A stretch of DNA of 41,029 nt from an uncultured Oscillospiraceae bacterium (GTDB taxonomy: Bacteria; Bacillota; Clostridia; Oscillospirales; Oscillospiraceae): contig CAKTOB010000022.1 in NCBI GenBank assembly GCA_934589525.1, positions 1 to 41,029 on the forward strand, written 5' to 3'. How positions within the stretch are numbered: position 1 is the first letter of the stretch; each line of letters opens with the position of its first letter. This document shows positions 8,778 through 40,949 of the stretch, one piece after another. A program made the translations under genes and the position numbers. The notes under the pieces were generated by a model. That model did not search any database. It was not told the DNA's origin and worked only from the letters and a program-made list of their open reading frames with translations.

Positions 8778-8792
8778 CCAAATTCTACGCTC

Positions 8793-10139
8793 CTATTGAT
8801 TTCCGTTTTGCCGTTCCAACGCCACCCCGATCAACCGGTCCGCCTGATCGGCCATAAACAGCGGGATATTCAGCACGTCCCCATCCAGTTTCAGATTATC
8901 CAGGGAGAACCGTATACGGAGTTTTACCTGGTCTGGGAACAGCTCTTTGAATTTTTTCAGGCTTTTGCTGGACGTATTGGCTTCTGATTTGACCTCCACC
9001 GGGAAAATGTCATTCTCCCGCTGGATCAGGAAGTCCACCTCGTAGGGTGGGTTGGTCTGGGTCCAGTAGCGGGGGGTAACTTCAAACTGCGGGATCAGGG
9101 ATTGCAGCACATAGTTTTCCGTCAATGCGCCTTTGAACTCCGTAAACAGGCGGTTTCCCTCGCCAAAAGCTGTGGGAGCCAGCTGGGCAAGGCGGCGGAG
9201 GAGTCCCACGTCTACCAGGTAAATCTTAAAGGCCGACAAATCATCATAGGCCGCAATGGGCAGTCCCGGTGCGGTGCTGCGATAAATTTTGTGGACAAGC
9301 CTCGCATCCACCAGCCATTGCAGGGCATCCTCATATTCCCTGGCTCTGGCCCCCTCTTTTACCACTTTGTAGATAAACTTTTTGTTTTCCCTTGCCAGTT
9401 GGGAGGGGATAGACTTCCAGATCATGGAGATTTTGGGAAATTCGCTCACATTGGGGTGCTTGGCAAAGTCCCGCTCATAGGCCCCGATGATGTTGCCCAG
9501 TGCCTCCTGCATGGCTCCCACATCCCGGGCCTGGGTCCACATCAGCACCGGCTCCGGCATTCCCCCTGTGACATAGTACATCTTGAGCTTTTCATAAAGG
9601 GGGTTAAAAAACGCATCGGGGATCGGTTCCAATTCCTCCAGGGTTTCCAGGTATTTTGCCAGATTTTCGTCCCCATTGGCAACCAGAAATTCCGAAAATG
9701 TCATGGGGTCGATCTGCATAAAGTTTACTTTCCCCACCGGGAAAGAGGAGGGCCTTGCCAGCGCAATGCCCAGCAGAGAACCGGCACAGGCGATATGATA
9801 CTGGGGGGCATTCTCGCAGAAGTATTTCATGGAATTGATGACCTTGGGGCAGTCCTGCACCTCGTCAAAAATGATCAGGGTCTTTTCCGGAACGATTTTC
9901 TGACCACTGGCCAGCATCAGATTTTGCAGGATGCGGTCAACATCCTTGGTGGTTTCAAAGAACTGCTTGTATTCCTCGTTTTCGTCAAAGTTAAAATAGG
10001 CAGTATTTTCATAATAACGTCTACCAAATTCTTTGAGAACCCAAGTCTTGCCCACCTGACGCACACCCTTTAAGATTAGCGGTTTGCGGTAGGGAGAATT
10101 CTTCCAGTCCAGCAGCTTTTTTAGGATGACTCTTTCCAC
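8793..10139 (-). CDS. AAA ATPase with DUF4143 nuclease-like C-terminal domain
   Basis: A 448-residue member of a common prokaryotic family of unknown role (AAA_14 plus DUF4143). The Walker A motif is GVRQVGKTW near residue 26 and the Walker B motif is LIIFDEVQDCP near 90. An arginine-rich sensor region follows, and the C-terminal part contains YEVDFLIQRENDIFPVEVKSE, a restriction-endonuclease-like D-x(n)-E-x-K core. I take GTG at 10139 as the start because GAGGAG lies seven bases upstream; a GTG at 10154 overlaps that site. It has its own promoter. Usual proposals are nucleic-acid or defence-related ATPase. A deleted paralogue lies at 40718-40840. Confidence 0.88.
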   Translation of the reverse strand: MERVILKKLLDWKNSPYRKPLILKGVRQVGKTWVLKEFGRRYYENTAYFNFDENEEYKQFFETTKDVDRILQNLMLASGQKIVPEKTLIIFDEVQDCPKVINSMKYFCENAPQYHIACAGSLLGIALARPSSFPVGKVNFMQIDPMTFSEFLVANGDENLAKYLETLEELEPIPDAFFNPLYEKLKMYYVTGGMPEPVLMWTQARDVGAMQEALGNIIGAYERDFAKHPNVSEFPKISMIWKSIPSQLARENKKFIYKVVKEGARAREYEDALQWLVDARLVHKIYRSTAPGLPIAAYDDLSAFKIYLVDVGLLRRLAQLAPTAFGEGNRLFTEFKGALTENYVLQSLIPQFEVTPRYWTQTNPPYEVDFLIQRENDIFPVEVKSEANTSSKSLKKFKELFPDQVKLRIRFSLDNLKLDGDVLNIPLFMADQADRLIGVALERQNGNQ

Positions 10140-29689: not shown

Positions 29690-29960
29690 CTTCATAGAAA
29701 AGCGATGACGAAGACGGATTTGACCGTACAGCCGATAGAGAGCCGGGGATGGTGGAAGCCCGGTGGACTGCCTTCAAAATCCCATCCCTTCTGAGCCGGA
29801 GTCCCCAAAGCGCTGCAAGTAGGGGCTTTCGCGGAGGCTGCGTTAGTGCCTAGGGCTTGTTGGAGCCTGAAATGAGCGGTGCGCCTTGGCGCACAATTTG
29901 AGTGGTACCGCGGGTATATTGGACCCGTCTCAAAGAAATTTGAGACGGGTCTTTATTTTT
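29690..29960 (+). ncRNA. T-box riboswitch with terminator, probably isoleucine-specific
   Basis: A leader that senses uncharged tRNA. Stem I shows the AG-bulge region AGAGAGCCGGGG and GGTGGAAGCCCGG. The T-box sequence GAGTGGTACCGCGG is at 29900-29913. The terminator follows: GACCCGTCTCAAA (29922-29934) with TTTGAGACGGGTC (29939-29951) and a T run. Aligned on the stem base TCTGAG, the specifier position reads ATC, an isoleucine codon, which agrees with the branched-chain amino acid carrier downstream. The specifier call is tentative because the following base is C instead of the usual purine. Confidence 0.9.
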
Positions 29961-29991: not shown

Positions 29992-31329
29992 ATGAAACTG
30001 GGAAAAAGAAATCTGTTGGTTGTAAGCGTCATGCTGTTTGCGCTGTTTTTTGGAGCCGGAAATCTGATTTTTCCGCCCTTCCTGGGACAGAACGCCGGTA
30101 CCCACACCTTGGCGGCCATGGCGGGCTTTCTGGCCACGGCGGTGATCCTGCCGGTGCTGGGGGTGGTGGTGGTTGCCCGGTTTGACGGGCTGGAAAAGCT
30201 GGGGCAGCAGGTGGGGAAGCGGTTTTCCCTGGTATTTACCCTTCTCATCTACCTCTCCATCGGTCCAGGACTGGGCATCCCCAGAGCCGCTTCGGTGCCC
30301 TTTGAGATGGCGGTGGCCCCTTATCTGCCCCAGGGGGCCAATTTGAAGCTGTGCATGGCGGTCTATTCCCTGGTGTTTTTCCTGGTGGCCCTCTGGCTCT
30401 GCCTGAACCCGGGAAAATTGGTGGACCGGATCGGCCGGGGGCTAACGCCTGCCATGCTGACCCTGCTGACATTGCTCTTCGTGTGCTTCCTGTTCCGGGG
30501 ACAGACCCAGGTGGCCCAGCCCCGGGAGAGCTATGCCGCCGCCCCGCTGCTCAAGGGCTTTACCGAGGGCTACAACACCATGGACACCATTGCCGCGCTG
30601 AATTTTGGCCTGGTGATCTCCACCACCCTGGCCTCCTTCGGCCTGAGGGAAAAGCGGGATAGAATGCGCTATACGGTCCTGGCGGGGCTTCTGGCCGGGA
30701 CCATCCTGGCCCTGGTCTACGCCATGCTCTCCTACATGGGCATGTGCAGCTCCGGCGTTTATGATCTCCAGGAGAACGGCGCCTGGACATTGCGGTGCAT
30801 CGTCTACCAGGTATTCGGCGGCCCCGGGGCGGTGCTGCTGGCGGCGATCTTCACCCTGGCGTGTCTCACCACCTGCGTGGGCCTCATCAATTCCATCTCC
30901 CAGTATTTTTCCACCCTCTTTGCGGCCGTTTCCTACCGCACCTGGGTGTATGTCATCACCTTCTTCTCCCTGCTGGTCTGCAACCTGGGCCTCAACATGA
31001 TCCTGAGCATCTCCGTGCCGGTGCTGAATGCCATTTACCCCGTATCCATCGTGCTGATCCTGCTGGGACTGACCCACGACCTGTGGAAGCAGAACCGGTT
31101 CGTCTACCCCCTGACGGTGCTGGGCACCGGGGCCGTCAGCGTCCTGTACGCCCTGGGGGATGCCGGCGTCCCTCTGGGGAGCCTGGGCCTGCTGCTGCAC
31201 CGGCTGCCCCTTTACAAACTGGGCTTCGGCTGGCTGGGCGTAGCAGCCGCCATGCTGGCCCTGAGCCTCCTGGCCGGTGCTTTCACCAAAACCAAAAACA
31301 GCCCGGCAGTCCGGGACTGCCAGGCATGA
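29992..31329 (+). CDS. brnQ: Branched-chain amino acid:cation symporter BrnQ
   Basis: A 445-residue membrane transporter with about twelve hydrophobic segments that takes up Leu, Ile and Val with Na+ or H+. The N-terminal FALFFGAGNLIFPPFLG (residues 16-32) is the family signature; GLGIPRAASVPFEM follows near 95 and LNAIYPVSIVLILLGL near 340. The length is normal. Start behind AGAGAGGAAG. Controlled by the T-box leader, so it should be expressed when charged tRNA(Ile) is short. No terminator is obvious after it; repeats follow. Confidence 0.96.
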   Translation: MKLGKRNLLVVSVMLFALFFGAGNLIFPPFLGQNAGTHTLAAMAGFLATAVILPVLGVVVVARFDGLEKLGQQVGKRFSLVFTLLIYLSIGPGLGIPRAASVPFEMAVAPYLPQGANLKLCMAVYSLVFFLVALWLCLNPGKLVDRIGRGLTPAMLTLLTLLFVCFLFRGQTQVAQPRESYAAAPLLKGFTEGYNTMDTIAALNFGLVISTTLASFGLREKRDRMRYTVLAGLLAGTILALVYAMLSYMGMCSSGVYDLQENGAWTLRCIVYQVFGGPGAVLLAAIFTLACLTTCVGLINSISQYFSTLFAAVSYRTWVYVITFFSLLVCNLGLNMILSISVPVLNAIYPVSIVLILLGLTHDLWKQNRFVYPLTVLGTGAVSVLYALGDAGVPLGSLGLLLHRLPLYKLGFGWLGVAAAMLALSLLAGAFTKTKNSPAVRDCQA

Positions 31330-31527: not shown

Positions 31528-31730
31528 GTAGTAGTCTGGTAAGACTAAAACTTCACTTCTTGATACAGATGAGCATGCTTGATTCGGGCAGAATCTGTTG
31601 TGAAATGCCAGGAGACTCCTTTTTGTTTGGAGTTCCTAGTTATTCATGTGGCTACACATCCTATTTTTTAGATTGTATTTATAGTATAGCACATGAAATC
31701 GAAAAGCAAAGCTTTAGTGTTAACGTTCTA
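31528..31730. repeat. 203-bp repeat, copy 2
   Basis: Inverted copy of 566-768, apparently without a mismatch. It ends 20 bases before the -35 element of the riboswitch promoter. The pair brackets about 31 kb including spo0A, the sugar locus and brnQ. Confidence 0.8.
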
Positions 31731-31749
31731 CTAGAGGTGAAAAAAGAAT

Positions 31750-31778
31750 TGACAAAGCCAGATGTCAGATGTATAATG
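31750..31778 (+). promoter_or_regulatory. Consensus promoter of the cobalamin-riboswitch operon
   Basis: TTGACA (31750-31755), 17 bases, TATAAT (31773-31778): a perfect consensus. High basal strength is expected, with control left to the riboswitch. Confidence 0.88.
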
Positions 31779-31858
31779 CACACCATAAAAGCAAGATAAT
31801 ACGAATGTTTTTATGGAAAATCTGCACAAAAGATGGACATTTCCAAGAAAATCGATGC

Positions 31859-32105
31859 TTTTTGCGCTCAGACCCATTCTGGGTGCGAAAAAAGTGAATA
31901 CATTGTTTCGGTGCCCCGCTTCATTGCGGGGAGAATAGGGAATCGTGTGAAAATCACGAACGGTACCGCCACTGTGGAATACCCAGAACGAACATGGGAT
32001 CGTCCGGCCATTGGGAAACCGAGAAGGCTGCTTCGTTCCGCGCGGAAGGCGCAAAGGGGATAAGTCAGGAGACCTGCCAAAACAGGTGTTTCGAGCCTTT
32101 GTACG
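31859..32105 (+). ncRNA. Cobalamin riboswitch
   Basis: Aptamer for adenosyl- or other cobalamin. Recognisable in order are GGTGCCCCGC (from 31910), the AATAGGGAAT segment, a GTGTGAAAATCAC stem, GGTACCGCCACTGTGG, and the B12 box AAGTCAGGAGACCTGCC (about 32062-32078). A separate hairpin at 31859-31891 precedes the aptamer. The terminator 30-60 bases downstream makes it a transcriptional off-switch, so the operon below should be silenced by B12. Confidence 0.93.
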
Positions 32106-32137
32106 GTTTTTTACAAATTGGCTCCTTTTGTTGTCAA

Positions 32138-32180
32138 AAACGTGACGACACGCCATAGGTGTGTTGCCGCGTTTTTTTGT
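32138..32180 (+). terminator. Riboswitch expression-platform terminator
   Basis: AACGTGACGACAC (32139-32151) pairs imperfectly with GTGTGTTGCCGCGTT (32159-32173), followed by TTTTTTTG. It lies between the aptamer and the first gene. Confidence 0.8.
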
Positions 32181-32213
32181 TTGCCAAACAGGCATGTTAC
32201 ATGGAGGTACAGC

Positions 32214-33038
32214 TTGACAGACGGGAAAGATTTATCCATACACCCCTGCTTTTCTCACAAAGCCCATTTTCTTTACGGGCGTATCCACCTTCCGGTGGCA
32301 CCCCGGTGCAACATCAGCTGCAATTTTTGCGATCGGAAATATGACTGTGTAAATGAATCCAGACCAGGGGTCACATCCAGGGTCCTGACACCCCAGGAAG
32401 CGCTGGACCGGTTGGAGCAGGCCCTGCGGGAGGAGCCGAGCATTCGGGTGGCCGGCATTGCCGGGCCGGGAGAACCTCTTTACAATGAGGAGACTTTTGA
32501 AACCTTTGACCTGATCCACCGGTGTCACCCGGAATTGCTGCTCTGTGTCAGCTCCAATGGACTGCTATTGGAGCGCCGCCTGGAGGATCTGCTATCCTGT
32601 GGAGTTTCCACCCTGACCGTGACCATCAACGCTCTGGATTTGCGGTCCGCAAATCAGATTTACCACGATGTGTTCCTGGACCAATATCCGGCTCGGCAAG
32701 ACCGGCTCCGGCAATTTCTGACCGCCCAGCGCAAGGGGCTGTACCGGGCATGTCAGGCGGGAATGACCGTTAAAATCAACACGGTCCTGATTCCGGGCAT
32801 CAACGAGAACCAAATCCAGGGCATTGCGGAAATGGGAAAGGATGCCGGAGCCACAATTATGAACATCATGCCCCTGATCCCCTGCGGGAAAATGGGGCAT
32901 AGTCACCCACCGGACAAAGAGACAATGCAGCGGGCCAGAGAACTGGCCGAATGCTACATTCCCCAGTTTTTGCTGTGCAGACAGTGCCGGGCAGATGCTT
33001 GCGGGATCCCCGGCAGAGAAAACGAACCCCGTATCTAA
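32214..33038 (+). CDS. NifB-like radical SAM protein
   Basis: NifB fuses two 4Fe-4S clusters into the 8Fe carbide core of the nitrogenase cofactor. This 274-residue protein has the NifB hallmarks: HPCF at residues 10-13, the radical-SAM C-x3-C-x2-C (C32, C36, C39), KYDCVNESRPGV at 42-53, AGIAGPGEPLYNEETFETF, LCVSSNG with a further conserved Cys, and C-terminal CRQCRADACG (C255, C258). It has no NifX-like tail, as in archaeal NifB. The start is TTG at 32214 because GGAGG lies six bases upstream; the open frame further upstream runs through the terminator. First gene of the B12-regulated operon. No nifE or nifN is present in the window. Confidence 0.9.
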   Translation: MTDGKDLSIHPCFSHKAHFLYGRIHLPVAPRCNISCNFCDRKYDCVNESRPGVTSRVLTPQEALDRLEQALREEPSIRVAGIAGPGEPLYNEETFETFDLIHRCHPELLLCVSSNGLLLERRLEDLLSCGVSTLTVTINALDLRSANQIYHDVFLDQYPARQDRLRQFLTAQRKGLYRACQAGMTVKINTVLIPGINENQIQGIAEMGKDAGATIMNIMPLIPCGKMGHSHPPDKETMQRARELAECYIPQFLLCRQCRADACGIPGRENEPRI

Positions 33039-33057
33039 GGAACCAGGAGGAACGCAT

Positions 33058-34110
33058 ATGAAAGCACTTACGCCCATAGGCCGTTATCAGCGGGACAGCC
33101 GCCGAAAAATCGCCATGATCGTTGTGGGGGTATTGCTATGTGCCGTGGTGTTTGTCTGTGATATTCTGGTAGGTACCTACGGCTTGACTGCGGGAGAGAT
33201 GTTTTACACACTGACACATCCGGCTGATCGGTCCGTGATGGCCTATATCATCGTGTGGACCATCCGACTGCCTCCCGCCGTTACCGGAATTTTAGCGGGC
33301 GTAGCCTTGTCTCTTGCCGGAGCCACCATGCAGACGATCCTGAATAATCCTCTGGCGACCCCCTATACCCTGGGGGTATCCTCCGGAGCGGGGTTGGGGG
33401 CCTATTCCGCCATTGTGATCAGCGTGGAAACCTTTTCCGTCTTGGGCCGGTATCTGTTGCCTGTATTTGCTTTTGTTTTTGCGCTGGGTGCCTGCCTTTC
33501 CATCTATGCCATCGCAAAGTTGAAGAACTTCACCTCCTCGATCATGGTGTTGGCAGGTATCGGCATGAACTTTCTGTTTTCGGCTGCCCAGACGTTGCTG
33601 CAATATGTGGCCTCGGCGGAGGAGCTGCAAACGGCCATGTTTTGGCTTTTCGGTAGTCTGAACCGCTCCAAATGGGAGGATCTGGCCATTCTCTTTCCGG
33701 TGATTCTGGTTTGCTTTTTTTACATCTACCGGAACAGCTGGAAGCTGACGGCCATGCAGTTGGGAGATGCAAAGGCGAAAACCCTGGGTATTCCTGTAGA
33801 AAAACTGCGGATGCGGATGTTTATCGCCATCTCCCTGCTGACGGCCACCGCCGTGGCCTTTGTGGGTACCATTGGGTTTATCGGTCTGGTAGGTCCGCAC
33901 ATCGCCCGGATGCTGGTGGGAGAGGATCAGCGCTATTTTATCCCCATGTCCTGTACCTGTGGGGCCTTGATCCTGTCTGCGGCGGGGTTGGCCGCCCGTA
34001 CCATTGTCCCGGGAACCATTCTTCCAATCGGCGTACTGACCTCGCTGCTGGGAGTCCCTTTCTTCTTTCTGCTGATCCTTCGAAAAAAGAGGGGGTTCCA
34101 GGATGCTTGA
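33058..34110 (+). CDS. FecCD/BtuC-type ABC permease
   Basis: A 350-residue inner-membrane permease of the siderophore/cobalamin/metal-chelate importer family, working as a homodimer. It has about ten hydrophobic segments; RLPPAVTGILAGVALSLAG (about residues 72-90) and NPLATPYTLGVSSGAGLGA are classic family sequence, and GFIGLVGPHIARMLVGEDQR (about 270-290) is the ATPase-coupling region. Start behind GGAGG. It overlaps the ATPase gene by eight bases. The B12 riboswitch makes a corrinoid a reasonable cargo, but iron, other metal chelates or another tetrapyrrole remain possible. Confidence 0.95.
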   Translation: MKALTPIGRYQRDSRRKIAMIVVGVLLCAVVFVCDILVGTYGLTAGEMFYTLTHPADRSVMAYIIVWTIRLPPAVTGILAGVALSLAGATMQTILNNPLATPYTLGVSSGAGLGAYSAIVISVETFSVLGRYLLPVFAFVFALGACLSIYAIAKLKNFTSSIMVLAGIGMNFLFSAAQTLLQYVASAEELQTAMFWLFGSLNRSKWEDLAILFPVILVCFFYIYRNSWKLTAMQLGDAKAKTLGIPVEKLRMRMFIAISLLTATAVAFVGTIGFIGLVGPHIARMLVGEDQRYFIPMSCTCGALILSAAGLAARTIVPGTILPIGVLTSLLGVPFFFLLILRKKRGFQDA

Positions 34111-34948
34111 TGTGCAAGATCTGTCCTTTTCCTATGGGACGGAACCTATTTTGAAACATGTGGGCTTTCAGGCTCAGGCGGGCTGTGTGACCTCGGTCAT
34201 CGGACCCAACGGGACAGGAAAAACCACGATGCTTCTGTGCATTGCCCGACTGCTGCCCTACTCGGGAGCGGTTTTTCTGGACGGCACCAACTTAAATCTG
34301 CTTTCCCGTCAGGACTTTGCCTCTCTGGTGAGCTTTCTGCCTCAGGATACTTCCTGCAGTGCAGAGCTGAATGTGTATGAGGTCATTTTGCTGGGGCTTG
34401 TAAACCGGCTCTCTTTCCGTGTAGCTCAAGAGGACACAGAGCGGGTCCGGTCGGTTATGGAGCTGTTGGGCATTACGAAATTCGCCGACCGGCGGATCAC
34501 AGAACTTTCCGGCGGTCAACGCCAGCTGGTGTTTATCGCCCAGACACTGGTAAAGGAGCCAAAGCTTTTGATTTTGGACGAGCCGACCAGCGCACTGGAC
34601 CTCAACCGTCAGTTCAGGCTGATGGACCTGATCCGGCGGATCACCCGGGAGCGGAACCTGACCACGCTGGTAACGCTGCACCACCTGGATATTGCCGCCA
34701 AATATTCCGATCGTGTGGTCACGCTGGACCGGGGCGGGATATACCGGGTGGGAACCCCTGAGGAAACCTTTACGCAGGGAATGTTTCGGGACGTATTTGG
34801 CATTGCATCCCAAATCTACAAAGATCCCCTTGGCGGACTCCATGTTATCGCCCTGGGGGACCTGCCCGAGGAAAACGGCAATGAGTCCCGGCCCGGAGGG
34901 CCGGATTCAAATAAAAGAAAGGGAGATGAGGGTCAGCCGATGCTTTGA
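34103..34948 (+). CDS. FecE/BtuD-type ABC transporter ATPase
   Basis: A 281-residue cytoplasmic ATPase powering the importer. Walker A is GPNGTGKTT near residue 34, the Q-loop lies in SFLPQDTS near 79, the signature is LSGGQRQ near 136, Walker B is LLILDEPTSALD near 156, and the H-loop His is in TLHHLD near 194. The tail after about 255 is polar and variable. It overlaps the permease gene. Only one permease and one ATPase gene are present, as usual for homodimeric BtuCD-like importers. Confidence 0.95.
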   Translation: MLDVQDLSFSYGTEPILKHVGFQAQAGCVTSVIGPNGTGKTTMLLCIARLLPYSGAVFLDGTNLNLLSRQDFASLVSFLPQDTSCSAELNVYEVILLGLVNRLSFRVAQEDTERVRSVMELLGITKFADRRITELSGGQRQLVFIAQTLVKEPKLLILDEPTSALDLNRQFRLMDLIRRITRERNLTTLVTLHHLDIAAKYSDRVVTLDRGGIYRVGTPEETFTQGMFRDVFGIASQIYKDPLGGLHVIALGDLPEENGNESRPGGPDSNKRKGDEGQPML

Positions 34949-35025
34949 AAATTGAACTACAAAAGTCGGGGCGCCGACCGGCTATCGGGACCCGACTGAA
35001 CAGACACACAGAAAGGATCATTTCA

Positions 35026-36231
35026 ATGAAAAAGATGTTATCACTGCTGCTGGCCGCCCTGCTGGTGCTAAATTTTGCAGGCTGCGGAGCCAAGGCCCCT
35101 GTCGCCCCGGAGACGACTGCCGCTGCCACCGCCAATCCGGAGACCACGGTTCCCGAAACCGTTTCCGCTGCCTTTGACATTGTGGACAGCGTTGGCAGAA
35201 CCGTTCATTTTGAAAAAGCCGCAGATACCTGTGTCACCGCAGCCATCCAGGGCGGTGCTTTTATGACCATGTGCGCCCTGTTTGGGGAGGACGTCACCCA
35301 GCATCTTGTGGCCTGGGATGACGGAATGGCCTCTTGGAAGGACTGGTACGAGGTATTCAGCAAGGCGCTGCCGGAACTGGCCTCCGTAAAGAATGTTGGC
35401 TCTTTCAAGCCGGATAAGCTGGACGTAGAAGCCGTTATTGCCATTCACCCTGATGTGTTTATCTGCCCCATTTACTACTACAATTTGGAAGGCATGAACG
35501 ACAAAATCGTACCCACTTTGGAGCAGGCGGGGATCCCCGTTGTGGTGGTGGACTACCGTCAGGACCAACTGGAAGCTCATCTGCACTGCATGGAAATCAT
35601 TGGAAAGGTTTTCGGCAAGGAGGAGCGTGCCCAGGAGTTGGCAGATTTTTACAAGGAACAAATGGAGCTGGTGTTCAACAAGACCGACAAGCTGAAGGCT
35701 GCTTCCACCAAGGCGCCGGTGTTTTATATTGAGTTTGCCTGGAAGGGTGCCGCAGATCAGGGCCTATCCTATTCCAATAAGTCCCAGTGGGGCAACATTC
35801 TGACCAGCATTGGCGCTTCGACCCTCTATGCCGATGCCGACACCGAATATCCCACGGTGGACCCGGAGTATATTCTTTCCAGCGATCCCGATGGTATCAT
35901 CCTGCTGGGCGGCTGGTGGGGCAATGACGGCCAAGTACCTCTGGGCTTCCAATCCAACCCGGAGATGGTGGACCAGGCCATGGCCCAGTACTGCGCCCGT
36001 CCCGGTTGGAGCCAGCTCCAGGCAGTGCGCAACGACCAGGTGTACGCTCTGTGCAACTCGCTGACCCATGATATTTTCAGCTTCTCCAGCTTCCAGCAGA
36101 TGGCAAAAATCGTATATCCGGAGGAATTCAAGGAGCTGGATCCCAATGCTGCTTTGAAAGCATTCTTTGATGCATTCATGCCGGTGGAGTTTTCCGGCCT
36201 GTGGTTCCACCAGATGACCGCCGCCAACTAA
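35026..36231 (+). CDS. FecB/BtuF-like substrate-binding lipoprotein
   Basis: A 401-residue lipoprotein. The signal peptide MKKMLSLLLAALLVLNFAGC ends in a lipobox with Cys at residue 20, followed by a Pro/Ala/Thr linker and a two-lobed metal-chelate-binding domain joined by a rigid helix (about residues 48-390). It starts with DIVDSVGRTVHFEKAAD, typical of the fold. GAKAPVA and similar linker sequence is not conserved. Start behind GAAAGGATC. It is longer than BtuF (about 265). It delivers its ligand to the FecCD-type permease. The C-terminal WFHQMTAAN overlaps the ribosome site of the next gene closely. Confidence 0.93.
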   Translation: MKKMLSLLLAALLVLNFAGCGAKAPVAPETTAAATANPETTVPETVSAAFDIVDSVGRTVHFEKAADTCVTAAIQGGAFMTMCALFGEDVTQHLVAWDDGMASWKDWYEVFSKALPELASVKNVGSFKPDKLDVEAVIAIHPDVFICPIYYYNLEGMNDKIVPTLEQAGIPVVVVDYRQDQLEAHLHCMEIIGKVFGKEERAQELADFYKEQMELVFNKTDKLKAASTKAPVFYIEFAWKGAADQGLSYSNKSQWGNILTSIGASTLYADADTEYPTVDPEYILSSDPDGIILLGGWWGNDGQVPLGFQSNPEMVDQAMAQYCARPGWSQLQAVRNDQVYALCNSLTHDIFSFSSFQQMAKIVYPEEFKELDPNAALKAFFDAFMPVEFSGLWFHQMTAAN

Positions 36232-36245
36232 GGGAGGCCCTGCCG

Positions 36246-37010
36246 ATGGACACAACCATGGATCTTCAAAAAATCAGGCAGGTGTTCTCCGACTACTGGT
36301 CTGTACGCGCCCAGACCTATTCGGACGATATGTCAAGCATCGACCTTCGGGATGACTGGAAGGCAGAGCTAAAAAGCAGAATACAGCAGCAGTTCCCGGC
36401 TCGGGCACCGGAAAGCATCAGGGTCCTGGAGCTTGCCACCGGTCATGGATATTTTGCGGGCATACTGGCAGAGCTGGGATACACCGTGACCGCCGTAGAT
36501 CTGGCTCCCGGCATGCTGGAGGTGGCGAAAAAGAATTGCGCCGCCTGGTCTGACCGGATCACGTTTCAGCAAATGAACGCCGAGGAGCTATCCTTCCCGG
36601 ATGCCAGCTTTGATGTGGTGTTTTGCCGCTTCCTGACATGGCTGCTGCCCCAGCCGGAACAGGCCTACGGTCAATGGTGCCGGGTACTGAAACCCGGTGG
36701 GCTGCTGCTGGTATATGACACCATGCTTGCCAAGGAACGGGGCACGGAACCGGACCCGGAGGAGCTGGATAACCCCTCTCGCACAGAGCTGCTCCAAAGG
36801 ACCGGCATGCGCCCGGAGCTGTATGACGACCTGATTCGTCTGAGCGGAGAGTTGGAAATCGGCTTCGTGAATCGCCCCAACTGGGATCTTCAGGTTTTGA
36901 AGGGCCGGGGCATGGAAGCGGTTTCTGAAAATGTAACACGGCTGAGTACCTTAAAGCAAAGCGATACCGAAATGTCTCAGCTGTTGCTGGTAAAGGGCGT
37001 TAAAAAATAA
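36246..37010 (+). CDS. Class I SAM-dependent methyltransferase
   Basis: A 254-residue cytoplasmic methyltransferase of the UbiE/Methyltransf_11 kind. Motif I is VLELATGHGYFAG (about residues 61-73), motif II is VTAVDLAPGMLEVAKKN near 83, and VLKPGGLLLVYDT (about 150-162) is motif III/post-motif. Substrates in this family are small molecules or cofactors. Start behind GGGAGGCCC, 14 bases after the binding-protein stop, so co-transcribed. Its place between the importer and the NifHDK-like genes suggests that it modifies the imported compound or the reductase product. Corrinoid biosynthesis uses different, CbiL/CobI-type enzymes, and this is not one of those. Confidence 0.9.
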   Translation: MDTTMDLQKIRQVFSDYWSVRAQTYSDDMSSIDLRDDWKAELKSRIQQQFPARAPESIRVLELATGHGYFAGILAELGYTVTAVDLAPGMLEVAKKNCAAWSDRITFQQMNAEELSFPDASFDVVFCRFLTWLLPQPEQAYGQWCRVLKPGGLLLVYDTMLAKERGTEPDPEELDNPSRTELLQRTGMRPELYDDLIRLSGELEIGFVNRPNWDLQVLKGRGMEAVSENVTRLSTLKQSDTEMSQLLLVKGVKK

Positions 37011-37027
37011 TTTACCCCTAATTATTG

Positions 37028-37077
37028 TTTGCCCGGAAAATTTGTAGAGAACATGCAAATCTTCCGGGCAAATTTTT
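37028..37077 (+). terminator. Intra-operon terminator or attenuator before the nifH-like gene
   Basis: TTTGCCCGGAA (37028-37038) pairs with TTCCGGGCAAA (37062-37072); AATTTG/CAAAT extends the stem. TTTTTC follows. It has the full form of an intrinsic terminator although the next gene starts 20 bases later. It may lower, or make conditional, the expression of the three structural genes relative to the importer. Confidence 0.8.
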
Positions 37078-37097
37078 CTTTATTTCCAGGAGGAACC

Positions 37098-37925
37098 ATG
37101 AAAAAAATCTGTATATACGGAAAAGGTGGTATCGGAAAATCCACCGTTGTTTCCAATGTAGCGGCGGCTCTGGCCTGTACCGGTTTGAAAGTTGCGGTAG
37201 TGGGCTGTGACCCCAAAGCCGATTCCACCCGAAATCTGACCAGAACAAGAACCGAAACGGTACTGAATTGCGTGATGCGGGGAGAGGAACGGTTCTATGC
37301 CTATGGCTTTAAGGATGTACTGTGCATCGAGTCCGGAGGGCCGGAGCCGGGTACCGGCTGCGCCGGACGGGGCATTGTTTCAGCGCTGACGGCCATTCGG
37401 GAGAAAAATCTGCTGGCAGATCGGGATGTGGTACTTTTCGATGTGTTGGGTGACGTGGTATGCGGCGGATTCAGCGCCCCTATGCGGGAGCAAGTGGCGG
37501 ACCAGGTGTATCTCGTAACAACTGACGACTACATGGCCCTGTATGCCGCCAACAACATCTGCAAAGGCATCTGCAAATACGCCGCCTACGGGGATATTCG
37601 TCTTAGCGGTGTTATCCGAAACGGCCGGTCCAGTGTCAGCGAAATGGGGGCTGCGGAGGCGTTCGCTGCGGCCATCGGTTCGGAGGTCATTGGCAGCATT
37701 CCCATGGACCGGGCAGTGAGTCTGGCAGAGATCCGGCGCCAGACGGTGATCGAGTCCTATCCGGACAGTTCCATTGCCCAGGCCTTCCGAGATCTGGCCC
37801 AGGCCATCCTCCAAAAAGAGGGCGGCATAGTACCCAACCCTTTGTCGGAAGATGCACTGGAAAGGCTTTATCTGGAAAGCATGAAAAAAAGGCAGGCAGA
37901 ACAGTGCGGAAAGGGCGGGCGGTAA
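37098..37925 (+). CDS. NifH-like nitrogenase reductase homologue
   Basis: A 275-residue P-loop ATPase forming a homodimer around one 4Fe-4S cluster and passing electrons to the NifDK-like partner. Walker A GKGGIGKS is at residues 8-15 and GCDPKADSTR at 36-45. Cluster Cys 88 lies in CIESGGPEPGTGCAGRG and Cys 122 in FDVLGDVVCGGF. These segments are much closer to true NifH than to BchL (which has HDSTF and a different cysteine loop). Arg 91 in CAGRG is the position ADP-ribosylated in NifH. Start behind AGGAGG. Slightly shorter than NifH (about 290). Confidence 0.93.
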   Translation: MKKICIYGKGGIGKSTVVSNVAAALACTGLKVAVVGCDPKADSTRNLTRTRTETVLNCVMRGEERFYAYGFKDVLCIESGGPEPGTGCAGRGIVSALTAIREKNLLADRDVVLFDVLGDVVCGGFSAPMREQVADQVYLVTTDDYMALYAANNICKGICKYAAYGDIRLSGVIRNGRSSVSEMGAAEAFAAAIGSEVIGSIPMDRAVSLAEIRRQTVIESYPDSSIAQAFRDLAQAILQKEGGIVPNPLSEDALERLYLESMKKRQAEQCGKGGR

Positions 37926-37927
37926 AA

Positions 37928-39463
37928 ATGGAAAAAACCCAGGCTTTTTGGAATCACCTCAGTGATGAGATGTACCCCACCTGGTTCCTCCATTCCTTTG
38001 TAATGAACGGAAAAATCTCTGGACACATTGCCGCCCTGGGGGAAATGCAAGGGGACATTCTGTGTATATTGGATGCGCCTATTGGCTGCGGCTTCCACTA
38101 TCGCAATGCCGCCAGAAGAAGGACCCATCCTTATTACGCCCTGCAATGCAGCGATTTAAAGGAGCGGGAGATCATTATGGGCGGTGACACACAGTTGGAG
38201 CAGTCTGCCCGGAAGGCCTATGCCCGCTTCAAGCCCCAACTGATTTTCCTAATTCCCTCGCCCATTACGGATATTCTCAACGAAGACCTGTTCTCAGTGG
38301 CGGCTCGGCTTCGGGCAGACGGTATCCCGGCAGTCGCCGCCAAATCCGAGCGATTTTCTCTACCGGATAAGGACTATGTGGCAAACCTTATGCACGAACG
38401 GGGAAGGCAAAAGGTAGATGGGGATAACCATCTGGAAATTGATGTCAGCGGCTGCGGCTTTAATGAGGCCATGTGTGCCGTCATCGATCAGGTCATGGAG
38501 AATGTACCCAAAAAGAAGCACAGTGTCAATATTGAAACCATCTCCTGGGGCATCGAAGGGCCCCAGGTCTTGGAGGAAATCGAAGCATTCCTTATGGAAT
38601 GTGGCATCCACGTCAATTGCCGGATCCCCAACGCCACATTGGAGGAAATTCGCCATGCTCCGGCGGCAGAACTGAATCTGGTCACCCATTTTATCAAATG
38701 GGCCAGAAGAATGCGCTGCCACTTTGGAACGGATTATCTGCACATGGGAGAGCGTACACGCTATGACGGGTTGGAGGGAATCTGCCGCTTTTACATGGAC
38801 ATTGCCCAGCGGCTGGACCTGACCGACCGAATGGAGCCTCTGGTCGCTGCGGCACGGGACAAGGCTCTGGCAGACACCGACGATGCCCGGCGGCTACTGG
38901 CCACGAAAACCTGTGTGCTGGTGTGCCGGGGGCTTCAGGAGGTACCCAAACAGCTGCAGCTGTACACAAAGGGATACGATCTTTCCATATCTGCTGTCTG
39001 TGTGATCTGGACGGCAGATATGCGGCGCTATTACTATGTGGACGAAGCTCTGGAAAAACAGCTGGAGGACCGGCTACGGACTGCCGGCGCACTGTATGCC
39101 CCGGCAGCGGAACTGCTGATCAACCCCTCGGCGGCAGATTTTCAAAGGGTCGTCTCCGGCTGTGACGGAATTGTGGGATCCGGCGATTTTACGATGGAGG
39201 GCAAAGGCGTGCCGGTGATCCCCGGCATTCTGAATACCATGTCCTTTTCCTTCCCCTCCTATGTCCGCAGTGTCCAGCGTTTGGCCCAGGCCTTTAACCG
39301 AGAGCGGGAAAAGAAATCCCTGATCCTAAACAGACTGGGTATCTCCGAGGAGGACCCCAATTTGCTTTCAGGCCCCAGCCACAGAGCCTCCCGTGAAATG
39401 TGGCTCCGGCTTTGGTGGGATTACCAGGACAATGGTGGAAACCGGAAAGGGTGTTGCGAATGA
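37928..39463 (+). CDS. NifD-like component 1 subunit, divergent
   Basis: A 511-residue protein of the nitrogenase component 1 family. Family landmarks are DAPIGCGF (Cys 54, matching NifD Cys 88), LKEREIIMGGDTQLEQSARK at 77-96, LNLVTHF at 249-255, and VGSGDFTMEGKGVPVIP near 425. Compared with Azotobacter NifD as I remember it, the first and third P-cluster cysteines are absent (no Cys 26 residues before Cys 54; Ser 111 in place of the third). The FeMo-cofactor Cys position reads Thr-His in LVTHF, and the cofactor His near the C-terminus is missing. Start at 37928; a GTG at 37904 is possible. It overlaps the nifK-like start (ATGA). Confidence 0.88.
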   Translation: MEKTQAFWNHLSDEMYPTWFLHSFVMNGKISGHIAALGEMQGDILCILDAPIGCGFHYRNAARRRTHPYYALQCSDLKEREIIMGGDTQLEQSARKAYARFKPQLIFLIPSPITDILNEDLFSVAARLRADGIPAVAAKSERFSLPDKDYVANLMHERGRQKVDGDNHLEIDVSGCGFNEAMCAVIDQVMENVPKKKHSVNIETISWGIEGPQVLEEIEAFLMECGIHVNCRIPNATLEEIRHAPAAELNLVTHFIKWARRMRCHFGTDYLHMGERTRYDGLEGICRFYMDIAQRLDLTDRMEPLVAAARDKALADTDDARRLLATKTCVLVCRGLQEVPKQLQLYTKGYDLSISAVCVIWTADMRRYYYVDEALEKQLEDRLRTAGALYAPAAELLINPSAADFQRVVSGCDGIVGSGDFTMEGKGVPVIPGILNTMSFSFPSYVRSVQRLAQAFNREREKKSLILNRLGISEEDPNLLSGPSHRASREMWLRLWWDYQDNGGNRKGCCE

Positions 39464-40662
39464 AGCCTGCATATTCATGTAAATTATTTGGTGCACAGCA
39501 GGTGTTTACGGGGATACAGGGCTGTGTTACCCTGCTGCACTCCGTCCCGGGCTGTAATTTTGGGACGCTGGCCATCCATGCCCCCAATGACATGGCAAGG
39601 ATCTGCCAGACGACCTCCGCACTTAATGACGAGGACATCGTTTTTGGCGGCGAAGCTTCCCTGCGCAAGGCATTGTACTCCATCGACGAGCTGTACCATC
39701 CAGAGTTGACGGCAGTCATCACCGGCTGTGTCAGCGATATTATCCATGATGATGTGGCCGCAGTGGTAAAGGGATACAAGGGGAGTACGGAAATTCTTGT
39801 CCAGGAAGCCGCCGGATTCCGGGGGACCTTTCAAGACGGATTTGAGGCGGCACTGCTACGTCTGGCGGACCTGATGTCCCCAGCCGAGACAAGGCCCCAA
39901 GGCAAACCCATGGTCAATGTGATCGGCATAGGAGCAGATGATCCCCACGGGTCCGCCGATGCCCGTGCTTTCCAGGCACTGCTGGGACCGGAGGTGGCGC
40001 TGGGCTGTATCATTGCCCAGTGCAGCCTTCAACAACTGCGACAGGCCTCCAACGCCTCCTTGAATCTAGTCCTTGGCCGGGGCGTTTCCCTGGCGGAGGA
40101 GATGAAACGCCGATTCGGCATTCCCTACGAGGTCGTGGACTATCCCTACGGTCTGACAGGCGCAGAGGAGATTTGGTCGTGTCTGTCCAGGCACCTGGAC
40201 ATCGATACAAAGCCTTTAGCCGATGCCTTTGTCCGGTATACCGGGGAACGGCTGAAACCCGTCTACTCCTACCTCAAGTCCCTTTATGCCATGCCGGTTT
40301 CCGTAATCGGCACCGGGGCACGCTATCGAGGTATGGCAAGGTTTCTGACCCAGGAGCTGGGTGCCCAGGTTCTCTGCGGTCAGGCAAGAGAAGAACTCCC
40401 GGACCTGGATGACTTTATTGACCGGGTGTCAGCCTCCGATACCGCCCTGGTATTTGGCTCCTCCTTTGAGGGGGAGATATCCGGCAAGCTGCATATTCCC
40501 GTTTTTTACTATGATTACCCGGTTTTCCGCAGAGTGTGCATTACAGACCGCCCCTATATTGGCGCAGCAGGCACCGTCAACCTGATAGAGGCCCTGCTGA
40601 ACGAACTGATGTCCTTCTCCACACCCCAAAGCGGCACCGTACCGGGAAGCTGCGGAATGTAA
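39460..40662 (+). CDS. NifK-like component 1 subunit
   Basis: A 400-residue partner of the NifD-like protein. Three cysteines match the NifK P-cluster ligands with the same spacing: Cys 7 (YSCKLFGA), Cys 32 (SVPGC) and Cys 90 (ITGCVSDIIHDD) are separated by 25 and 58 residues, as in NifK Cys 70, 95 and 153. NDEDIVFGGEASLRKAL (56-72) is the family motif. It lacks the roughly 50-residue N-terminal extension and some C-terminal sequence of true NifK. ATG at 39460 overlaps the NifD-like stop, so the pair is translationally coupled. Last gene of the operon; no clear terminator follows. Confidence 0.9.
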   Translation: MKPAYSCKLFGAQQVFTGIQGCVTLLHSVPGCNFGTLAIHAPNDMARICQTTSALNDEDIVFGGEASLRKALYSIDELYHPELTAVITGCVSDIIHDDVAAVVKGYKGSTEILVQEAAGFRGTFQDGFEAALLRLADLMSPAETRPQGKPMVNVIGIGADDPHGSADARAFQALLGPEVALGCIIAQCSLQQLRQASNASLNLVLGRGVSLAEEMKRRFGIPYEVVDYPYGLTGAEEIWSCLSRHLDIDTKPLADAFVRYTGERLKPVYSYLKSLYAMPVSVIGTGARYRGMARFLTQELGAQVLCGQAREELPDLDDFIDRVSASDTALVFGSSFEGEISGKLHIPVFYYDYPVFRRVCITDRPYIGAAGTVNLIEALLNELMSFSTPQSGTVPGSCGM

Positions 40663-40717
40663 CACTTCCCACGTCCTCCCAGGTACAGCGAACACAGCCC
40701 CGTCAAATCCTACGCTC

Positions 40718-40840
40718 CTATTTGTTCCCGCTTTGCCGGTTCAGTGCAAGCCCCATCAGCCGATCCGACTGATTAGCCATAAACAGGGGGATGTTCAGCA
40801 CATCGTTTTCCGTCAGCGCACCCTTGAACTCCGTAAACAG
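40718..40840 (-). pseudogene. Internally deleted remnant of an AAA/DUF4143 ATPase gene
   Basis: About 40 codons on the minus strand read LFTEFKGALTEN followed at once by DVLNIPLFMANQSDRL and end at TAG (40718-40720). Both pieces match the ATPase at 8793-10139, where they are about 115 residues apart. The join is in frame and lies at a short shared TGTGCTG/CGTGCTG sequence. The front part of the gene is gone; a 30-base palindrome begins at the broken end. Non-functional. Confidence 0.85.
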
Positions 40841-40866
40841 TAAGCGCTCAATTGAGCGCTTACTGT
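40837..40866. repeat. Perfect 30-base palindrome
   Basis: ACAGTAAGCGCTCAA and its exact complement meet at 40851/40852. The halves TAAGCGCT and AGCGCTTA resemble LacI/CcpA-type half sites but are six bases too far apart for a standard site. It could be an operator, a terminator stem or an element end. No T run follows on either strand beyond TTT. Confidence 0.7.
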
Positions 40867-40918: not shown

Positions 40919-40949
40919 GAAAAAACCGCCTCGTTTTCACGAAGCGGTT
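40919..40949 (-). terminator. rRNA operon terminator
   Basis: AACCGCCTCG (40924-40933) pairs with CGAAGCGGTT (40940-40949), with one mismatch. On the minus strand it is followed by TTTTTT and lies just after the 5S rRNA 3' end. Confidence 0.85.

Follow-up and report, generated by a model that had tools for sequence, protein, structure and literature searches.

A nitrogenase-like operon under a cobalamin riboswitch in Bacillota and its possible part in acquiring cobalt or corrinoids

Introduction

Known relatives of nitrogenase fix N2, reduce tetrapyrroles or cleave C-S bonds. The window, by which we mean the whole 41,029-nucleotide stretch of DNA analysed here, from an uncultured Oscillospiraceae bacterium, carries NifB-, NifH-, NifD- and NifK-like genes in one run with genes for a chelate-type importer and a methyltransferase, and with a cobalamin riboswitch at their head. 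What would such a reductase do in a cell short of B12? An earlier note on the sequence had proposed two alternatives, the reduction and methylation of a corrinoid or tetrapyrrole after its import or the replacement of a B12-dependent reaction by the reductase, and it knew of no described function for the gene set; our literature search likewise found none. Nitrogenase-like genes next to ABC transporters were noted in Firmicutes and archaea in 2012, and a link to metal transport was proposed for such loci in the passages that deal with them (Dos Santos et al., 2012, PMC3464626). Like the window, those loci have NifHDK-like proteins with no FeMoco ligands, varying cluster cysteines and ABC transporter neighbours, but the cobalamin riboswitch, the NifB partner and the one-plus-three cysteine pattern described below are window features that these passages do not mention.

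Results

A cobalamin riboswitch precedes eight tightly packed genes

The sigma-70-type promoter (TTGACA-17 bp-TATAAT; 31749..31777, plus strand, as are all features below) agrees with the consensus at 12 of 12 letters; the promoter scan in total returned five sites, compared with 5.8 in shuffles, and the four others reach just 9-10 of 12. It is followed by a cobalamin riboswitch aptamer (RF00174; 31892..32095), matched by cmscan over the full covariance model (positions 1-189) with 88 bits (gathering score 31.5; E = 1.4e-20), and by an intrinsic terminator hairpin with a T run (32136..32176; stem at 32146-32166 by pattern scan). All three elements lie where the earlier note had placed them. 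The RNA fold of 32060-32185 has an energy of -42.1 kcal/mol (z = -4.0). The hairpin is likely the expression platform of the riboswitch, and cobalamin is predicted to shut the operon off, in what we infer to be an OFF switch.

Eight genes follow, separated by 19, -8, 77, 14, 87, 2 and -4 bases, and Pfam and NCBIfam models assign them in order to Radical_SAM/NifB-like, FecCD, ABC ATPase, Peripla_BP_2, SAM methyltransferase, Fer4_NifH and, twice, Oxidored_nitro, which bears out the tight packing (-8 to 87 bases) and the families previously read from the sequence. The first encodes a NifB-like radical-SAM protein with no NifX domain (32214..33038); its start, corrected from the earlier note, is most likely the TTG at 32214, with GGAGGT upstream. 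It misses the NCBIfam nifB cut-off (TIGR01290, 257.6 bits against 343.65, the match covering only model positions 8-279 of 441), and it matches solved NifB structures at 239 bits (7jmb/7bi7) and 267 bits (6y1x). Alignment to 6y1x over residues 14-273 places the radical-SAM CX3CX2C core, the RPGV motif and the C-terminal cysteine motif, all of them present.

The importer comprises a FecCD-type permease (33058..34110; PF01032, 298 bits), a FecE-type ATPase (34103..34948; PF00005; FecE model 208.5 bits, under the cut-off of 375) and a substrate-binding lipoprotein of the metal-chelate class (35026..36231; Peripla_BP_2, PF01497). The permease scores best against BtuC, of the cobalamin importer BtuCD/BtuF, but it falls under that cut-off (218.7 of 334 bits), and the binding protein, which had been labelled BtuF-like, loses that label: it reaches 25.6 bits against a BtuF cut-off of 234, and among solved structures it is closest to 4mo9 (234 bits) and to iron/siderophore binding proteins such as 6b2x (134 bits). 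A SAM-dependent methyltransferase comes next (36246..37010; PF08241, 86.9 bits; CpaM model 69.7 bits, under the cut-off of 180), and the operon ends with a NifH-like ATP-dependent reductase (37098..37925; PF00142, 305 bits; ATG behind AGGAGG; TIGR01287 326.7 bits, under the cut-off of 394) and the NifD-like (37928..39463; PF00148 and alignments) and NifK-like (39460..40662; PF00148, 195 bits, and alignments) catalytic subunits.

The riboswitch and the reductase recur together

A search for the arrangement found the riboswitch and NifDKH unit again on other contigs and genomes, so the association goes beyond chance. We compared 13 Bacillota loci: the window, L001, L002, L003, L004, L016, L021 (Flavonifractor plautii ATCC 29863), L022, L023 and, from genomes sampled in the families of F. 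plautii and L003, L067, L068, L069 and L094. Of the 11 loci with visible upstream DNA, window included, 10 have a cobalamin riboswitch at the start of the nitrogenase-like unit; this count omits L022 and L023, where the contig starts within D or K, and includes L001, where the aptamer is 5'-truncated. A first riboswitch scan took in 10 of 12 intended loci and a later one L010; L005 lay outside both. In L021, L002 and L068 the riboswitch lies directly before NifD, 120-135 bases away, which marks the reductase itself as a regulatory target. The Selenomonas locus L004 (21 kb) gave no riboswitch, NifH-, NifB-, Fec- or SBP5-type match.

Importer genes lie within the same gene run in six of these loci, of the Fec type in the window, L016, L069 and L094 and of the DppA/NikA type in L003 and L067; the L021 unit is seen to start with NifD, and its SBP5 genes stand under a separate riboswitch. 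The NifB-like gene is present in 10 of the 12 loci that show the corresponding position (L016, whose contig ends in K, is omitted), the misses being L004 and L022. In the other 12 loci, as far as their sequence is visible, no methyltransferase resembling that of the window turned up. L002 is a damaged copy that has lost most of K, together with the beginning of H, to a deletion, and was used only for D, for the riboswitch and for its neighbourhood, in which CbiZ adjoins the unit. The pairing of nitrogenase-like with Fec-type genes is also seen in Sporomusa L057, together with a siderophore receptor.

A separate lineage with mirrored cluster cysteines

In trees, H, D and K of the window lineage branch outside the Nif, BchLNB, BchXYZ and Mar/Isr-like rows, and D and K additionally outside the NifEN, Vnf and CfbD rows; relatives from Methanosarcinales/ANME form the sister lineage of all three subunits. 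Placement of all three inside one characterised group, which would have told against the earlier note, was thus not observed with a reference set lacking curated Mar, Isr and CfbC rows. A single Mar-like plasmid locus (L061), rather than R. rubrum, stood for Mar, and the stand-in for Isr, the plasmid locus L060 with its radical-SAM and ABC transporter genes, grouped with L061 and apart from the window. The CfbD loci fetched yielded no CfbC, and the NifH tree was therefore built without it, as well as without L067-L069 and L094; the joint tree was built without L094, and its D/K set without D and K of L001, L005, L012, L019 and L018 set 2, all present in an earlier tree.

Ligand residues are numbered here as we take them to be in NifD and NifK, in agreement with the parts of PMC12552129 and PMC3464626 that treat them. 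In alignments, the window NifD-like protein retains the C88-type cysteine, has none at the C62, C154 and C275 positions and carries an additional Cys176, and the NifK-like protein has all three of the C70-, C95- and C153-type cysteines. The bacterial lineage has four cluster cysteines, a single one on D and the other three on K, a distribution that is reversed (three plus one) in the archaeal sister. The aligned rows of the window and the Bacillota have neither of the FeMoco ligands Cys275 and His442 in D, and the Cys275 equivalent is also missing in D of L068 and L094.

Each known system compared with the operon differs from it in some respect. Mo-nitrogenase NifDK was rejected, as D has neither Cys275 nor His442 and there are four rather than six P-cluster cysteines. 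MarBHDK shares the B-H-D-K set and a NifB-type maturase, and, in the account of it in PMC12552129, has P- and [Fe8S9C]-clusters with Cys270 and His429 as ligands; the window lineage, by contrast, lacks the Cys270 equivalent (the Cys275-type ligand) and two D cysteines, all retained by the Mar-like control L061, has four rather than six P-cluster-type cysteines and branches apart from the Mar-like row, and assignment to methylthio-alkane reductase was not retained. IsrBHDK likewise combines a radical-SAM gene with nflHDK, in the assimilation of an organic compound, but IsrB, as characterised in the relevant part of PMC11423573, resembles NifB in the radical-SAM motif only, whereas the window protein matches solved NifB as given above. 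NifEN has four bridging-cluster cysteines and the NifB product as partner, but carries three on NifE and one on NifN, the reverse of the window, and its tree position is separate. DPOR and COR (BchLNB, BchXYZ) were rejected on NCBIfam scores that are all under cut-off and on the lack of tree grouping, although the Bch rows are long branches, and CfbCD on its single homodimeric D-type subunit, where the window has two different subunits, and on the separate position of CfbD in the tree; against the CfbD cut-off of 268, D scores 22 bits and K 45.9, and the CfbC model gives 304.6 against 402. Archaeal "set 1" (Methanosarcinales/ANME; L006, L009, L010, L012, L014, L019) has sister H, D and K with Fec-type genes in the vicinity; L009, L014 and L019 also have methyltransferases whose similarity to that of the window is distant at best. 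The set differs in its three-plus-one cysteines, and scans of four of the archaeal loci (L006, L009, L010, L014) gave no cobalamin riboswitch.

Carrier genomes and their B12 and cobalt genes

CbiD and CbiJ are present in 10 of 11 carrier genomes, which suggests that the carriers likely make B12 or a corrinoid themselves. In the family sample, CbiD occurs in all five carriers and in 148 of 400 genomes overall (p = 0.007, kinship ignored). CbiM reaches its cut-off in none of the four genomes with importer-led units (in G003 it scores a weak 21.2 of 23.1 bits), as against three of three with units seen to be NifD-led (Fisher p = 0.029, post hoc, omitting G004, which has no CbiD, G006, which has no importer, and G007 and G008, whose unit heads are unseen). 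CbiM is, however, missing in 70 of 148 CbiD-bearing genomes, and is present in 3 of 5 carriers and 75 of 143 non-carriers (p = 1.0); strong CbiM matches were defined by E under 1e-15, and 19 genomes with weaker ones were set aside. NicO was found in none of the 11 carriers. In G005, where no CbiM was found, a riboswitch-led Peripla_BP_2-FecCD-ATPase set lies directly before CbiA- and CbiD-type genes. Absence calls are safest for G086, a single 4.3 Mb contig, the completeness of the other sampled genomes not being reported.

Discussion

The promoter, aptamer, terminator, gene order, protein families, lineage and cysteine pattern can be read directly in the sequence. As to substrate and chemistry, the reading that we favour, with somewhat less than even confidence, is that the operon is repressed by B12 and, when B12 is short, takes up a cobalt-bearing chelate, which might be a metallophore complex or a corrinoid, and processes it by reduction. 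When B12 is absent, the terminator would not form and the operon would be read; FecB, FecCD and FecE would import a metal chelate, and the NifB-like protein would build an 8Fe carbide-type cluster for DK. NifH, hydrolysing ATP, would donate electrons of low potential to a [4Fe-4S] cluster with one cysteine ligand from D and three from K. Co(III) ligands are exchange-inert, and from this cluster electrons would reach such an imported complex at the D active site, possibly via a cluster held by Cys176, which would either free the cobalt or turn a corrinoid into a form that the cell's own B12 pathway can use. For the methyltransferase we propose an accessory role confined to the window lineage, perhaps in methylating the freed ligand.

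Several observations were counted in favour of cobalt-chelate processing: the riboswitch at the head of most units together with the importers in six loci; the presence, in both importer classes, of binding proteins of solved structure whose ligands are metal chelates, nickel/metallophores or haem; the likely corrinoid synthesis of the carriers, with no NicO and, in the genomes with importer-led units, no CbiM over the cut-off; the Fec-type set before CbiA/CbiD-type genes in G005 and the CbiZ beside L002; and the frequent NifB-like gene, with the pairing with Fec-type genes in the archaeal relatives and Sporomusa. Against it, the importers are non-orthologous between loci and require no common ligand, CbiM is often missing anyway and equally so in carriers and non-carriers, the binding protein is not BtuF and SBP5 proteins carry peptides too. 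L021, NifD-led with separately switched SBP5 genes, and L004, with neither riboswitch nor importer, also fit it poorly, and reduction of a metal chelate seems less demanding than an ATP-driven, NifB-dependent enzyme would warrant. A more specific form of the proposal, an ATP-driven, NifB-dependent, cobalt-scavenging nitrogenase relative with its bridging-cluster cysteines swapped from D to K, produced only in B12 shortage and stripping or rebuilding imported cobalt chelates or corrinoids for the cell's own B12 synthesis, we regard as doubtful, if conceivable.

A main rival is a bypass of B12, in which the reductase would supply the product of a B12 enzyme, for example methionine sulfur or methyl groups by C-S cleavage of an imported compound. 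Cobalamin riboswitches do control B12-independent substitute enzymes too, the Chlorohelix Mar-like unit (L060/L061) adjoins ABC transporter genes and an O-acetylhomoserine sulfhydrylase, L003 and L067 have DppA-type importers, and Mar, as described in the relevant part of PMC12552129, has a NifB-type partner as well. Yet the D subunit has lost the Mar-defining cysteine and two of the three D P-cluster cysteines, no sulfhydrylase, methionine or other bypass gene was recognised in the units (few flanking frames being covered), small thioethers are ill-suited to Fec-type importers and the carriers likely make B12; we found no positive evidence for the substitute enzyme of the earlier note and consider the bypass unlikely. 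We give no better chance to a reductase that takes an imported ring of the corrinoid or haem type, reduces one of its double bonds or its cobalt, much like DPOR or CfbCD, and remodels it to a usable corrinoid. Four cysteines and no FeMoco ligand do recall the [4Fe-4S]-only tetrapyrrole reductases, as these are presented in part of PMC12552129, and the permease's best score, against BtuC though under the cut-off, the CbiZ beside L002 and the L003 binding protein, whose best relatives include haem-binding proteins, point the same way; but a NifB-like gene is unexpected for such enzymes, the trees show no grouping with Bch or CfbD, the binding protein is not BtuF, CbiZ occurs in just 3 of 11 carriers, and CbiJ is present, so the CbiJ reductase step is not missing. 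The earlier proposal of corrinoid or tetrapyrrole reduction thus keeps its importer and its reductase, given their recurrence and the CbiZ gene, but its methylation is weakly supported, the methyltransferase being seen, among the Bacillota loci, in the window alone, and that note's interpretation as a whole is partly supported.

That DK is a NifEN-like scaffold, maturing a NifB-derived cluster for another enzyme made under B12 shortage, is improbable. Its four cysteines and NifB-like partner would suit this role, and metal transport coupled to cofactor assembly was proposed for such loci in 2012 (in the relevant part of PMC3464626), but no second nitrogenase-like pair that could be the recipient was seen in the Bacillota loci, although the archaeal relatives do have a second set, and the cysteine at position 275, retained in NifE rows, is missing. 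Least probable of all is that the importer fetches cobalt or a corrinoid and the reductase simply rides along in the B12 regulon: cobalamin riboswitch matches number 18 in the F. plautii genome G001, 17 of them above the cut-off, and two of the six fetched precede SBP5 genes, but the riboswitch directly before NifD in three loci speaks against a passive role.

The import and reduction of a cobalt chelate or corrinoid, the reading we prefer, would place this operon in the supply of the cell's own B12 pathway. A conserved lineage directly under a cobalamin riboswitch links the nitrogenase superfamily to the economy of B12 and cobalt. The sister lineages, mirrored at one plus three and three plus one cysteines, both without the FeMoco cysteine and the bacterial one with a NifB partner, form a natural experiment on how a cluster is held, and riboswitch control offers a clear inducible phenotype, with a relative present in a named strain, F. 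plautii ATCC 29863. The locus likely helps its carriers to acquire cobalt or a B12-like molecule when the vitamin is scarce.

Organization and control of the operon

The operon (31749-40662) is headed on the plus strand by a sigma-70-type promoter matching 12/12 consensus letters and a full-length cobalamin aptamer (RF00174, 88 bits), with a terminator hairpin and T run ahead of the first gene. Eight plus-strand genes follow, with intergenic gaps of -8 to 87 bases, encoding in order a NifB-like radical-SAM protein (B), FecCD, a FecE-type ATPase, a Peripla_BP_2 lipoprotein (FecB), a SAM methyltransferase, and NifH-, NifD- and NifK-like proteins (H, D and K). The layout and gene families described in an earlier note are thus borne out by the feature and family matches, except that its FecB/BtuF-like binding protein is of the FecB kind but not close to BtuF. 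None of B, H, D and K reaches the NCBIfam cut-off of any named nitrogenase-family model to which it has a match; the core of B can be aligned to solved NifB, and a NifX domain is absent.

Several repeats surround the operon. One copy of a 210-base inverted repeat of 99% identity (31528-31737 and 559-768) stops 11 bases upstream of the promoter. The repeat may be mobile, and may either have brought the promoter in or flank it. Immediately 3' of nifK is one copy of an 80% identical direct repeat (40704-40804 and 8779-8879), followed by a perfect 26-base palindrome and a terminator-like hairpin (40839-40864; 40924-40949). Upstream, a T-box leader (29696-29935, 96.6 bits) precedes a transporter frame (29992-31329) that looks like BrnQ from sequence; in the Bacillota locus L068 the riboswitch likewise adjoins a gene for a branched-chain amino acid transporter (PF05525; 7097-8395).

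A rare lineage linked to cobalamin riboswitches

A protein search with NifD as query returned 44 proteins, and a scan of genome contigs 23 loci. The D subunit is rare and scattered: in whole-genome samples it occurs in 5/400 genomes of the Flavonifractor plautii family at E 1e-50, in 1/398 genomes of the phylum at E 1e-40, this being F. plautii itself, and in 2/329 genomes from the family of the L003 genome. The association of a nitrogenase-like unit with a cobalamin riboswitch, raised by the earlier note for the window, recurs in its Bacillota relatives: of the 11 Bacillota loci with readable upstream DNA, 10 have such a riboswitch at the head of the unit (the window, L001, L002, L003, L016, L021, L067, L068, L069 and L094, with L001 counted although its aptamer is cut by the contig end). 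Between aptamer and first reading frame lie 94-194 bases in the eight loci where the frame could be placed. No cobalamin riboswitch was found in the Selenomonas locus (L004), in the four archaeal loci scanned (L006, L009, L010 and L014), or in L007, from a MAG labelled Thermotogae. The F. plautii genome has 18 cobalamin riboswitch matches, 17 of them above the cut-off, and two of the six fetched precede family 5 solute-binding proteins.

The common order of the unit is D-K-H-B, from which the window departs with B in first place and H-D-K last. D lies directly behind the riboswitch in L002, L021 (F. plautii) and L068; FecB-FecCD-FecE intervenes in L016, L069 and L094, L016 stopping inside K; and in L003 and L067 the unit comes after an importer of the SBP5 type, which has two permeases and ATPases. 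A methyltransferase of the window type was found in 0/12 further Bacillota loci, a set that includes several short contigs. The archaeal units of L009, L014 and L019 have methyltransferases close by, which bear at most a distant likeness to it (L019: 39.7 bits). Because the longest contigs of homologues of the window binding protein (P0046) and of D (P0003) are equal in length (98,874 bases), the linkage appears to be retained in a close relative.

Other nitrogenase-like sets also adjoin transport genes or one another. A second D-K-H set (set 2) is present in archaeal L006, L009, L014, L018 and L020, its NifH being cut off in L006, and FecB-like genes form tandem arrays in L010 and L012. A Sporomusa termitida plasmid (L057, 1417-13866) has a distant nitrogenase-like set within a siderophore locus, comprising a TonB siderophore receptor, an ABC binding protein, two iron permeases, an ATPase, NifH, two nitrogenase component 1 genes and an alpha/beta hydrolase-fold gene. 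A single Chlorohelix plasmid (L060/L061) bears two units, of which one includes a radical-SAM gene together with an ABC transporter and the other, which is Mar-like, includes NifB, a NifB/NifX-family gene and an O-acetylhomoserine aminocarboxypropyltransferase gene. In L094 (2518-6698), a MoeA-like gene that scores below NCBIfam cut-offs runs divergently from the unit, together with FecCD-, FecE- and FecB-like genes; these may form an importer of molybdate or tungstate.

Phylogenetic placement and cluster ligands

In the NifH tree the window protein groups with its Bacillota relatives (98/99) and next with set 1 of Methanosarcinales/ANME archaea (81/91); Nif, BchL, BchX and both Chlorohelix proteins branch elsewhere. 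The joint D/K tree places both subunits alike, the window and Bacillota having archaeal set 1 as sister, then set 2; SH-aLRT values on these branches are 96-100 for D and 85-100 for K, the K Bacillota branch having 85. The trees were built by a quick method, and the position of the Bch and Sporomusa rows, which sit on long branches, is unsure. Both D and K lie outside the rows used for comparison (Nif, NifEN, Vnf, Chlorohelix Mar/Isr-like, Bch and CfbD). The outcome that the earlier note named as refuting, all three subunits inside a characterised group, did not arise with these references. The second Chlorohelix D protein is Mar-like as judged by its scores (475 bits against solved chain 9fmg and 473 against 9d9u, a Mar structure).

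The cluster cysteines are distributed unevenly between the subunits. D of the window and its Bacillota relatives retains the Cys88-type residue, with Gly at the Cys62 position and Pro or Val at that of Cys154 (Cys in L004), whereas the 70-, 95- and 153-type cysteines of K are all present in the window and ten Bacillota proteins, damaged L002 and cut L016 being excluded from the count. Archaeal set 1 has the reverse pattern, with three cysteines in D, and only Cys95, with Asp at 153, in K. For the window lineage a four-cysteine [4Fe-4S] bridging cluster, rather than a P-cluster, is predicted. Cys275 is absent from the window, its Bacillota relatives and set 1, and His442 likewise from the rows aligned for it. 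Cys176 of D, two positions before NifD His195, is invariant in 19/19 aligned rows; its GCG motif occurs in all 41 D homologues from the protein search that are 440 residues or longer, though so short a pattern can also match the Cys88 motif. Since the unit includes a NifB-like protein, we predict an 8Fe cluster as well, which would be held otherwise than in the known way.

Importers, cobalamin genes and a proposed role

The nearest relatives differ between the binding proteins of the window, L069 and L094; those with solved structures are named as iron/siderophore, iron-complex, nickel, haem or plain periplasmic binding proteins. That of L003 is closest to DppA, haem-binding protein A and nickel proteins, and that of L021 has weak relatives only. 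Since two unrelated importer classes were recruited to the same reductase, we infer that their common cargo is a chelate rather than a single fixed molecule.

CbiD and CbiJ occur in 10 of 11 genomes carrying the unit, which are therefore likely B12 producers by gene content; in the family sample CbiD is present in 5/5 carriers versus 148/400 genomes overall (p 0.007, kinship uncorrected). CbiZ is found in 3/11 carriers, CbiM above cut-off in 4/11, and NicO in 0/11. In a post hoc comparison of few, related genomes, CbiM exceeded the cut-off in 0/4 with importer-first units (a weak match in G003) versus 3/3 with D-first units (p 0.029); however, CbiM is missing from 70/148 CbiD genomes, and carriers overall are unbiased (p 1.0). 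In genome G005 (L077, 1884-10456), where CbiM was not found, a cobalamin riboswitch is followed by Peripla_BP_2, FecCD and an ATPase directly ahead of CbiA-/CbiD-type genes.

We propose that when B12 is scarce the riboswitch would let transcription proceed, a putative control that rests on the aptamer and terminator. The importer would then take up a cobalt-bearing chelate, and ATP-dependent electron transfer from NifH would reach the active site of DK by way of the four-cysteine cluster. The reduced ligand would release its cobalt or yield a usable corrinoid; from the cargo onward this scheme is inferred. One main rival, a reaction bypassing B12 such as C-S cleavage, is disfavoured by the absence of the Mar ligand from the window lineage and by the B12-making gene content of the carriers; the other is that the enzyme is a tetrapyrrole reductase proper.

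Our literature search found no link between a nitrogenase-like operon and a cobalamin riboswitch, the paired terms matching nothing. This agrees with the earlier note, which knew of no described function for the gene set, but the adjacency to ABC transporters is not new: Dos Santos et al. (2012; PMC3464626) described nitrogenase-like proteins without FeMoco ligands beside ABC transporters in Firmicutes and archaea, and proposed a tie to metal transport. The enzyme still counts as a variant within the nitrogenase superfamily; what is new, within the literature searched, is the riboswitch, the association of this lineage with NifB and the mirrored arrangement of cysteines in D and K.
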